Below are positions 39,484 to 41,469 of a DNA stretch of 64,000 bases, one piece after another. Origin of the DNA: Variovorax sp. EL159 (GTDB taxonomy: Bacteria > Pseudomonadota > Gammaproteobacteria > Burkholderiales > Burkholderiaceae_C); assembly GCF_900100965.1 (NCBI RefSeq), contig NZ_FMUJ01000002.1, positions 989,869 through 1,053,868 of the forward strand. The letters are read 5' to 3'. Below the pieces are notes generated by a model. The model did not search any database. It had not been told where the DNA came from and saw nothing but the letters and a program-made list of their open reading frames with translations. Position 1 is the first letter of the stretch; every line of letters starts with the position of its first letter. The position numbers and the translations under genes were made by a program.

Positions 39484-39975
39484 TTACTGGCGTTCCAGCG
39501 GAAGTTCGTAGCGTGCAAAGGAGGTGGCCCCTTTGCGGATCTCGCTGTGCAGCGAGAAGCCGAAGCGCTCGTAGAGCGAGCGCAGGGGCGCGCGGTCCGC
39601 CACGCAGTCGAGCCGCAGATGCTTGAGGCCTAGGCTCGAGGCACGTTCACGCGCGAAATTCAGCAGCGCCGTCGACACGCCGTGCCCCGCCCAGCGCCGG
39701 CCCACCGCCAGCTTGTGGACGAAGGCCGAACTGCCGCTCTCGATCTCGGGCCAGAAGTGCGGGTCTTCCAGGTCGAAGCGCATCACGCCCGCCACCTCGC
39801 CGTTTTCCCGGGCGATGAAGTAGCGCCCGGCATCGGTGTCGCGCTGCACGCGTTCCAGGCTGATGTCGGCAGCCGCCCACAGCGGCCGGCCTTCGTTGGC
39901 CAGCCATTGGGCGGCTTCGTTCAGAACCGCCGCAACGGTAGCTGCTTCAGTGGGGTGGGCTTGTTCGATCTGCAT
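39484..39975 (-). CDS. GNAT-family N-acetyltransferase
   Basis: This 163-residue acetyltransferase has the acetyl-CoA region AFVHKLAVGRRWAGHGVSTALLNFARERA (motif A) and the C-terminal LRSLYERFGFSLHSE, where the Tyr and Phe are the usual motif B residues. The ATG at 39975 starts MQIEQAHPTEAATVAAV; an in-frame start at 40005 is possible. The acceptor amine is not predictable. It is 20 bp upstream of the M14 gene and may be co-transcribed. Confidence 0.85.
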   Translation of the reverse strand: MQIEQAHPTEAATVAAVLNEAAQWLANEGRPLWAAADISLERVQRDTDAGRYFIARENGEVAGVMRFDLEDPHFWPEIESGSSAFVHKLAVGRRWAGHGVSTALLNFARERASSLGLKHLRLDCVADRAPLRSLYERFGFSLHSEIRKGATSFARYELPLERQ

Positions 39976-40014
39976 GGGGCGCAAGCATAAGCATGCGCCG
40001 TGCATCGGTTGGCT

Positions 40015-40506
40015 CTAGGCGTGGCGGACCACATGGAACCCTTCGTCTTCCGATGGCGCGGCAAAGTGGCTCGTGATCAGGTCGAACTGCGCATCGCTCG
40101 TCTCGAACGGGTGCTCTCCGCTCGCATTGCGTGCCCGCAGCCGCTGCTTGCAGACCGCGTCGGGCACGTCCAGAAAGTGAAGCTGGTGCGCCGCGCCAGC
40201 CGCCTCGAAGATGCCGCGTGCCCACGCCCGGTTGCTCACCGTGTTGGCCGGAAAGTCGAGCACCACCGAAACGCCGGCGGCCAGCAGTGCCGAGACATGG
40301 CTCGCCATCGCCTGCTTCAGTCGTCCCGAGGCACGCACGTAGTCGGGCAGCTCGCGGATCTCGCCCGGGTACAGCGCATCGAGCCAGGCGTCTTCGCTGA
40401 TGAGCACCGTGGCGGGCTCCAGTGCAAGGCGCCGGGTGAGCGTCGATTTGCCGGCGCCGATCTTGCCGCAGACCATGTGAAGCGTGGCGGGCGTCGATGG
40501 GTTCAA
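40015..40506 (-). CDS. P-loop AAA/zeta-like kinase-fold protein
   Basis: This 163-residue nucleotide-binding protein starts with a P-loop, MVCGKIGAGKST (14-22), followed by ISEDAWLDALYPGEI, the DxD-like region, VVLDFPANTVSNRAW (the lid-side acidic strand) and LHFLDVPDAVCKQRLRARNA. This architecture is shared with zeta-toxin and small-molecule kinases (PF13671 type). No antitoxin is adjacent. The TTG at 40506 is chosen because AGGAGA precedes it by the proper spacing. Its phosphate acceptor is unknown. Confidence 0.82.
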   Translation of the reverse strand: MNPSTPATLHMVCGKIGAGKSTLTRRLALEPATVLISEDAWLDALYPGEIRELPDYVRASGRLKQAMASHVSALLAAGVSVVLDFPANTVSNRAWARGIFEAAGAAHQLHFLDVPDAVCKQRLRARNASGEHPFETSDAQFDLITSHFAAPSEDEGFHVVRHA

Positions 40507-40545
40507 TTCGTTTCTCCTGTGACTTTGGAACAAGACCCCAGGAGA

Positions 40546-40571
40546 CAAAAAACCCGCCTCGTGGGGCGGGT
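40546..40571 (-). terminator. Strong intrinsic terminator ending the RNA candidate / amino acid ABC transcript
   Basis: On the minus strand ACCCGCC, a six-base loop and GGCGGGT are followed by a run of T residues. The stem occupies 40552-40558 and 40565-40571. This is the clearest rho-independent terminator in the window. It lies about 120 nt past the stop codon of the amino acid ABC ATPase gene. Confidence 0.88.
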
Positions 40572-40661
40572 CGTATGGCGTGAACTTCTTCTTCGGATCG
40601 CGCGCTAACCCACCATCTTTGCGATGGTGCGAATAATCGACGCGATCCGGAGGCAGGCCAT
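40546..40661 (-). ncRNA. Candidate structured small RNA (possibly 3'-UTR derived)
   Basis: Between the ABC ATPase stop and the strong terminator, the minus strand can fold into nested helices. A 9-bp outer stem pairs CGGATCGCG (complement of 40641-40649) with CGCGATCCG (complement of 40594-40602). A 7-bp inner stem CACCATC/GATGGTG (40611-40617 with 40623-40629) has a five-base loop. A purine-rich GAAGAAGAAG single strand then precedes the terminator. An 18-codon open frame with ATG at 40661 overlaps the structure (MACLRIASIIRTIAKMVG), so a leader or small peptide is an alternative. No known RNA family was recognised. Confidence 0.5.
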
Positions 40662-40689
40662 GGGCCGAGGATAGCCGAGGCCGAAGCCT

Positions 40690-41469
40690 TCAGTCATGCA
40701 GCGACGACAAAAACTGCTTCAGCTCCGCCGTCTGCGGGTTGCCGAACAGCTCTGCCGGCGGCCCCATTTCATGCACGCGGCCCTGGTGCATGAAGATCAC
40801 GCGGTCGCTGACCTTGCGCGCAAAGCTCATCTCGTGCGTGACCATCAGCAGCGTCATGCCTTCGTCGGCCAGCGACTCCACCACGCGCAGCACTTCGCCC
40901 ACCAACTCGGGGTCGAGCGCCGAGGTGATCTCGTCGCACAGCAGCACCGCGGGCTCCATCGCCAGCGCGCGCGCAATGGCCACGCGCTGCTGCTGGCCGC
41001 CCGACAGTTGCTCGGGCATGGCGTCGAACTTTTCCGCCAGCCCCACGCGCTGGAGCAGCTTGCGCGCCTGCGAGGCGGCTTCCATCGACGAGCGCTTCTT
41101 CACCAGCGTGGGCGCCAGCATCACGTTCTTGCCGACCGTGAGGTGCGGGAACAGGTTGAAGCTCTGAAAGATCATGCCCACGCGCTGGCGCAACGCGCGC
41201 ATGGCCATGGCGCTTTCGTGCAGCAACGGCTTGCCGTCGACGGTGAGCGAGCCTTGCTGGAACACCTCCAGCCCGTTGATGCAACGCAGCAGCGTGCTCT
41301 TGCCCGAGCCGCTCTTGCCGATGATGGCGATGACCTCGCCGCGCTTCACGTCCAGGTCGATGCCCTTGAGCACTTCGTTGGTGCCGTAGGACTTGCGCAG
41401 CGCGGTGATGCGCACGATGGGCGCGGCGAAGGTGGCGGGTTCCGGTTGTTTTTCAAGCACGGCGGCCAT
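40690..41469 (-). CDS. Polar amino acid ABC transporter ATP-binding protein
   Basis: This 259-residue ATPase of the GlnQ/HisP group has Walker A GKSGSGKST at 51-59, the Q-loop at IFQSFNLFPHLTV, signature LSGGQQQRVAIARAL, Walker B VLLCDEITSALDPEL and the switch histidine in LMVTHEMSFA. It energises import by the two adjacent permeases. Its start overlaps the permease gene by 17 bp. It closes the operon on the minus strand; the RNA candidate and a strong terminator follow. Confidence 0.93.
   Translation of the reverse strand: MAAVLEKQPEPATFAAPIVRITALRKSYGTNEVLKGIDLDVKRGEVIAIIGKSGSGKSTLLRCINGLEVFQQGSLTVDGKPLLHESAMAMRALRQRVGMIFQSFNLFPHLTVGKNVMLAPTLVKKRSSMEAASQARKLLQRVGLAEKFDAMPEQLSGGQQQRVAIARALAMEPAVLLCDEITSALDPELVGEVLRVVESLADEGMTLLMVTHEMSFARKVSDRVIFMHQGRVHEMGPPAELFGNPQTAELKQFLSSLHD

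Follow-up and report, generated by a model that had tools for sequence, protein, structure and literature searches.

Among the closest described systems are the thr, ilv and trp attenuators, in which a leader ORF with control codons is followed by alternative 1:2, 2:3 and 3:4 pairings and by a U-tailed terminator; a likely prior source on such attenuators in the proteobacteria is Vitreschak et al. 2004 (FEMS Microbiol Lett). Elements of the same kind are seen or predicted in the window analyzed here, a stretch of 64,000 nucleotides from Variovorax sp. EL159, and we consider it very probable that the minus-strand unit at 40546-40661 serves as a ribosome-mediated transcription attenuator that responds to isoleucine and lies in the leader 5' of an AAA_33 kinase gene. 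As judged from sequence, the principle is that of the thr, ilv and trp leaders, but the window family differs from them by a probable leaderless start, with no Shine-Dalgarno-like site before the peptide, and by unexpected targets, which include kinases. This reading draws its support from the comparison of the peptide frame, the Ile codons, the covarying stems, the alternative pairings, the constancy of the downstream gene and the presence of ilvA or ileS behind the leader elsewhere, from which we infer the transcription start, the termination, the expression and the response to Ile-tRNA.

T-boxes bind tRNA directly and thereby differ from the unit described here, for which a translated peptide is the proposed sensor. 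As proposed for some relatives of our unit, ileS is controlled at the RNA level in Actinobacteria, there by a T-box, according to excerpts of PMC1262725. A further likeness, by description and not by sequence, is that to trpL/rnTrpL of Sinorhizobium meliloti, whose attenuator RNA starts at the leader-peptide ATG, although control is by tryptophan and trans roles have been shown for rnTrpL (excerpts of PMC7298713). In the available portions of the literature matches listed, nothing was found on this leader, on P9 or on ilvA attenuation in these groups.

Among known RNA families, the preliminary description had recognized none that fitted the unit, and the window indeed has no Rfam match at gathering thresholds. 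At a relaxed threshold, however, it resembles RF00624 (P9), falling just under the cut-off (40.8 bits, cut-off 43), while Thr_leader (RF00506) scores 27.7 bits (cut-off 55). The P9 cut-off is reached in 4 of 61 genomes of relatives (19 match at E <= 0.01, some through the terminator only), in 2 of 274 genomes of the class (4 match, our own genome included), in all 8 genomes behind chosen loci and at all 10 chosen pattern loci (53-64 bits). P9 presents the same hairpin, GGGUUAG and ACCCGCC..GGCGGGU terminator in the same order, and its consensus, read by eye, contains Ile-Ile-Ile-Thr codons in a frame ending at UAG; on these sequence features, P9 is a putative relative of the window element. 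The two differ in their interpretation, since Rfam gives P9 the type Gene and the description "Pseudomonas sRNA P9", whereas we read the window element as a leader. Thus, an RNA type listed by Rfam as an sRNA gains a testable reading as an isoleucine switch.

The structured unit and its leader peptide

The features of the locus, in the direction of transcription, are the following.

40692 to 40697, minus strand: weak -35-like hexamer ATGACT, spaced 18 nt from the -10 (the two hexamers match the consensus at 8 of 12 positions)
40668 to 40673, minus strand: -10-like hexamer TATCCT, separated by 6 nt from the leader ATG (from the sequence; similar in most aligned congeners)
40605 to 40661, minus strand: leader peptide ORF MACLRIASIIRTIAKMVG plus stop, 18 codons (from the sequence and the conserved frame)
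40641 to 40649, minus strand: outer stem 5' arm, the outer part of segment 1 (fold and covariation)
40632 to 40637, minus strand: adjacent Ile control codons ATT ATT (codon alignment of 43 leaders)
40623 to 40629, minus strand: inner stem 5' arm, the inner part of segment 1 (fold and covariation)
40611 to 40617, minus strand: inner stem 3' arm (fold)
40607 to 40614, minus strand: segment 2, GGTGGGTT, which can pair with segment 3 as antiterminator (predicted folding and arm-swap pairing analysis)
40594 to 40602, minus strand: outer stem 3' arm (fold and covariation)
40565 to 40572, minus strand: segment 3, GACCCGCC, terminator 5' arm or partner of segment 2 (terminator scan and predicted folding)
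40547 to 40558, minus strand: segment 4, GGCGGG plus U-tract, closing the intrinsic terminator as its 3' arm and tail (terminator scan)
40514 to 40518, minus strand: kinase Shine-Dalgarno AGGAG (from the sequence)
40015 to 40506, minus strand: AAA_33 P-loop kinase gene, TTG start, 163 aa (Pfam AAA_33, orthologs after the leader, structure model)
39484 to 40005, minus strand: GNAT acetyltransferase gene (gene order)

The 9-bp outer stem (40649-40641 with 40602-40594), the 7-bp inner stem (40629-40623 with 40617-40611) and the strong U-tailed terminator (40572-40551) that had been described previously are all present, the last being also returned by a terminator consensus scan. The minimum free energy of 40546-40661 on the minus strand is -53.6 kcal/mol, compared with -36 (sd 3.8) in 200 shuffles, none of which was as good (z = -4.61). 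Segment 2 overlaps both the inner stem and the stop codon of the leader peptide. While attenuation is in force, transcription would be expected to yield a discrete RNA of about 115 nt with its 3' end at the terminator. In its own genome the element gives a single match, both by DNA search and with the covariance model R1, and neither found a second copy, for example at ilvA; a dispersed repeat was therefore rejected.

The 18-codon frame that had been noticed at 40661-40605 proved to be real, its Ile codons and its frame being conserved across leaders. We compared 43 leaders dereplicated at 85% (8 from Variovorax, 3 found via P9 and 32 pattern loci from the matches listed), in which Ile is coded at the first control position in 41 (the others being one gap and one Leu) and at the second in all 43, and, apart from that single Leu codon and that single gap, variation in the Ile pair is confined to the third base. 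Ile accounts for 168 of the 813 codons of 42 leaders, in a count based on an ORF choice that favored frames with Ile pairs; when the choice was made with no such preference, the same peptides were obtained wherever the strand was right, save for L107 (the wrong-strand rows were L001, L003, L005 and L008). The codon totals, like the promoter statistics given below, refer to 42 leaders, with L069 omitted, as its start lies further upstream. Furthermore, ATT makes up 38 of 65 Ile codons in the 20 Variovorax leaders, versus 10 of 80 in seven window genes. Arg (9.7%) and Thr (8.5%) are also frequent among the peptide codons, which counts against the attenuator reading.

The peptide core is Ile rich and constant, as would be expected also of a sequence-specific arrest peptide sensing an antibiotic or a metabolite instead of charged tRNA-Ile. 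We regard this alternative as unlikely: the C-terminal part of the peptide varies between clades (MVG, WWVC or IIP) and does so even in its reading frame, which argues that the codons, rather than a fixed arrest sequence, are what matters.

Upstream of the frame, the spacing of 6 nt between the -10-like hexamer and the ATG puts the predicted transcript start on the A of the ATG or close to it. The window promoter, which scores only 8 of 12, fell below the cut in a stricter promoter scan. Across the 42 leaders, the best promoters positioned to start transcription at the ATG reach a mean of 8.07 out of 12, compared with 4.93 (sd 0.18) after shuffling (0 of 300 as high), and TTGAC occurs at the right place in 26 of them; the eight Variovorax rows, on the other hand, score just 4 to 8 and lack TTGAC, which counts against such a promoter. 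Shine-Dalgarno-like sites of the kinds sought were found before the peptide in none of the 42 leaders, and the window peptide has no such site either. The promoter spacing together with the absence of such sites suggests that the mRNA of the peptide is leaderless, and this likely leaderless start adds interest for the study of leaderless translation.

Alternative pairings and the proposed mechanism

Covariation of the stems, which the preliminary description had proposed as a check, was found for the outer and inner stems among the 43 dereplicated leaders. In alignment A1 of these leaders, 8 of 22 pairs carry double changes, versus 5.3 in shuffles (1 of 500 as high), and 44 cells are doubly changed, versus 15.5 (0 of 500), in a count that takes its structure from a single row, L050, and that relatedness of the sequences can inflate. 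The paired cells amount to 87% for the stated structure and to 35-51% after sliding it along the alignment. RNAalifold alone returned only 9 pairs, the terminators being one column out of register in some rows. A comparison of each arm with its own or with a swapped partner gave -12.1 versus -9.4 for the outer stem and -10.2 versus -8.7 for the inner stem, with 0 of 2000 permutations as good in either case. No swap signal was obtained for the 2:3 pairing in the 43 leaders (645 of 2000 permutations as good); segments 2 and 3 are nearly invariant and pair at -11 to -19.5 kcal/mol in all of them. The terminator helix is likewise nearly invariant and shows no double change in the same set.

By sequence and predicted folding, the pairings 1:2, 2:3 and 3:4 thus exclude one another, and 3:4 is the intrinsic terminator. 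In particular, segment 2 has two possible partners, segment 1 and the terminator 5' arm, a predicted arrangement that corresponds to the geometry of attenuation. Folding was predicted with a ribosome on the first or the second Ile codon, assumed to cover 13 nt from the codon in its A site; as long as segment 4 has not yet been transcribed, both positions give 2:3. In the finished leader, 2:3 is still the predicted fold when the ribosome occupies the second Ile codon, while on the first the two states are nearly equal (-24.0 for the terminator and -23.1 for 2:3); the terminator state being slightly lower there, antitermination from that codon must be kinetic.

It is possible to propose the following mechanism. 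Transcription would begin on the leader-peptide ATG or right beside it, and the peptide would be read from a leaderless mRNA. With ample charged tRNA-Ile, the ribosome would get to the stop codon and cover segment 2, so that terminator 3:4 could form. When charged tRNA-Ile is scarce, the ribosome would stall on the adjacent Ile codons and mask segment 1, that is, the outer and inner 5' arms; the resulting 2:3 pairing would preclude the terminator, and the kinase gene, probably together with the GNAT gene, would be transcribed. If translation does not take place, 1:2 would form, followed by termination.

The leader and the kinase gene in Variovorax

A DNA search with the element matched 23 of 101 genomes at E <= 0.001, our own included, three of the matches being short and limited to the terminator. 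At the 20 congener loci (L001 to L020, own included), an orthologous AAA_33 kinase gene lies downstream in every case, about 50 nt past the terminator. The placement of the unit after an amino acid ABC operon, as previously described, holds true for the window, but at 6 of the 20 loci (L015 to L020; L008 is absent from the alignment) the end of the ABC ATPase gene has given way to other sequence upstream. With the covariance model R1, the leader was found in 25 of 71 Variovorax genomes (E <= 2e-6) and the kinase in 26 of 71 (E <= 1e-20); all 25 leader genomes are among the 26 kinase genomes, with the leader adjoining the kinase gene on the same strand, and none of the 45 genomes lacking the kinase has the leader.

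This co-occurrence already contradicts the view that the unit is a mere double terminator of the upstream ABC operon containing an ORF by chance. That view would account for the strength of the terminator and for its position in the window, with the ABC operon on one side and the next gene on the other, but, given also the constant downstream gene after differing upstream sequences and the conservation of the frame, the Ile codons and the start, it retains next to no probability. The reading that fits best assigns the unit to the kinase gene downstream, as its 5' leader, and not to the ABC operon. Thus, the structured RNA and the mini-ORF proposed at the outset are both real, and their conservation indicates that both are maintained by selection, while their function is better described as that of a cis leader than as that of a free-standing RNA.

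Weaker R1 matches bring the number of Variovorax genomes to 30 of 71 at E <= 0.01, only the 25 being counted; the additional five are G053, G054, G058, G383 and G388, and further weak places occur in G001, G007, G017 and G038 (E from 2e-5 to 0.008). The weak place in G038, the one that was read, lies within coding sequence. In G383 (L233) the kinase gene occurs without the leader, and in G011 (L235) and G023 (L037) the terminator is kept before the kinase frame while the Ile block is lost; these cases count against the proposed association.

The TTG start of the kinase was chosen because of its Shine-Dalgarno site. The protein matches Pfam AAA_33 (2.1e-32; 112.8 bits on the longer 177-aa ORF, cut-off 27), and its P-loop residues C13, G14, K15, G19, K20, S21 and T22 are invariant in 20 aligned kinase sequences. 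For the structure model (pLDDT 91.9), Foldseek placed polynucleotide kinases nearest (PNKP, E 4.9e-8), and VIA-align returned O-phosphoseryl-tRNA kinase (PSTK) with Z 15.7, rmsd 2.3 and 146 residues; PFKFB3, a bacterial polynucleotide kinase and Kti12 are also near, and sugar and nucleotide kinases score close. The modeled fold therefore fits a nucleic-acid or tRNA kinase but small-molecule kinases too. PADLOC assigned the kinase to no defense family at E <= 0.01, and a sequence search of the PDB returned adenylate kinases only (7e-5). The GNAT gene begins about 10 nt after the kinase gene, and similar GNAT frames occur in several congeners; it would probably belong to the kinase transcript and be under the leader.

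Relatives of the leader and their downstream genes

Named genomes were scanned with a pattern in which GTGGGTT and the terminator were kept constant, and at least 80 loci were obtained. The 103 loci considered here comprise 20 from Variovorax, 3 found via P9 and 80 pattern loci from the matches listed; L082, L083, L110 and L112 are probably the same as L011, L012, L006 and L010 and hence counted twice among the 103, and L037 stands outside them. Among these loci, pattern matches listed included, the downstream gene is ilvA in 43, an AAA_33 kinase gene in 43, an NTF2-like gene (DUF4440/SgcJ-EcaC) in 6, a gene for a second P-loop kinase in 6 plus one remnant, and ileS in 3, with one locus having no assigned gene; the families were assigned by motifs, and the domains were checked for nine representatives. 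Taken separately, the 80 pattern loci (matches listed) include 43 with ilvA and 23 with AAA_33, whereas the 20 Variovorax loci, chosen via the window element, all have AAA_33. With the "DNA topology modulation" model (cut-off 215), the second P-loop protein reaches 74-84 bits, and at L119 an apparent C-terminal remnant of this protein follows the leader.

At 101 of the 103 loci, the leader is immediately followed by a gene in the same orientation, the exceptions being L063 (cut off) and L119 (the gene remnant). This arrangement speaks against a stand-alone small regulatory RNA acting in trans, with or without a coded peptide, to which the compact fold and the Rfam classification of P9 could otherwise be referred, and which also finds a precedent in attenuated leaders able to work in trans (excerpts of PMC7298713). 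A trans-acting RNA would moreover leave the Ile codons, the frame and the 2:3 alternative without explanation. The purine linker GAAGAAGAAG, through which pairing with pyrimidine-rich targets had been suggested, is present in the window but is not conserved in congeners, so that target pairing by this route is unsupported. We therefore give the stand-alone RNA a very low probability. By analogy with rnTrpL/peTrpL of Sinorhizobium (excerpts of PMC7298713), the RNA terminated by the attenuator, or the peptide, may additionally act in trans.

The identity of the targets bears as well on the arrest-peptide alternative. Families that modify small molecules (GNAT, PhzF and possibly the kinases and NTF2-like proteins) are among them, as that alternative would have it; the targets of known function, ilvA and ileS, point instead to isoleucine. 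The gene ilvA codes for threonine ammonia-lyase, the entry to isoleucine synthesis, and its family was confirmed for one representative. In the ilvA and ileS relatives, the regulated gene is thus in the pathway of the control amino acid, as in a charged-tRNA attenuator.

In searches not tied to the pattern, whose tighter filters come at the cost of weak matches, the leader turned up in 6 of 369 genomes at the class level and in 11 of 299 at the family level, our own being among them both times. Of 13 such places that were read, seven have AAA_33 (L260, L262, L263, L265, L266, L267 and L270), and single ones have an NTF2-like gene (L259), a GNAT gene (L258), the second P-loop protein (L261) and a PhzF-type gene (L268). 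L269 was rejected as a false match to the terminator only, and no downstream frame could be made out at L264. Altogether, the leader was found in beta-, gamma- and some alphaproteobacteria.

In Marinomonas (L062, L067 and L107), the leader lies ahead of a long ileS gene. Both Marinomonas genomes searched contain a separate ileS of 940 residues besides the long one, each pair being full-length and scoring above the cut-off of the family, and in G374 the two products share 29% identity. For the 1057-residue enzyme encoded behind the leader in G374, the mupirocin-resistance model MupB gives 760 bits (cut-off 1900); the 940-residue IleRS of this genome matches neither MupA nor MupB at E <= 1e-100. 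On this sequence evidence, the leader-borne ileS of G374 is assigned to the IleRS2 type; IleRS2 enzymes are described as mupirocin-resistant in excerpts of PMC4861432 and PMC10485003.

It is possible to hypothesize, though we hold it to be doubtful, that the leader marks a set of accessory genes, partly plasmid-borne, which would form a "tRNA-Ile alarm" regulon and in which the kinase would protect cells whose Ile-tRNA pool has been hit. To this tentative regulon would belong the IleRS2-type synthetase of Marinomonas, the kinase with polynucleotide-kinase/PSTK fold, and the NTF2-like, GNAT and PhzF proteins; within the same speculative scheme, the kinase might repair or mark damaged tRNA-Ile or inactivate natural inhibitors of isoleucyl-tRNA synthetase. 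For uncharacterized families such as the AAA_33 kinase, the NTF2-like proteins and the second P-loop kinase, the leader offers a first functional hint, namely, that they may respond to the state of tRNA-Ile.

On plasmids, the leader was found with R1 at 8 of 14 loci picked from 38 and 78 matching records, which add members from Enterobacterales and Rhizobium; R1 found no leader at the NTF2-like loci of Klebsiella, Yoonia and Rahnella or at the kinase loci of Tistrella, Rhizobium leguminosarum and Roseovarius. The plasmids of Pantoea and Phytobacter (L245, L252 and L253) keep the Ile-rich peptide, the hairpin and the kinase gene, with a terminator, CCCGCCGGTAAGGCGGG, that is built differently. 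On a plasmid of Azotobacter chroococcum (L242, 1942-2980), a single leader is followed by an NTF2-like gene and an AAA_33 kinase gene with overlapping ends, and this shared leader links the two target families.
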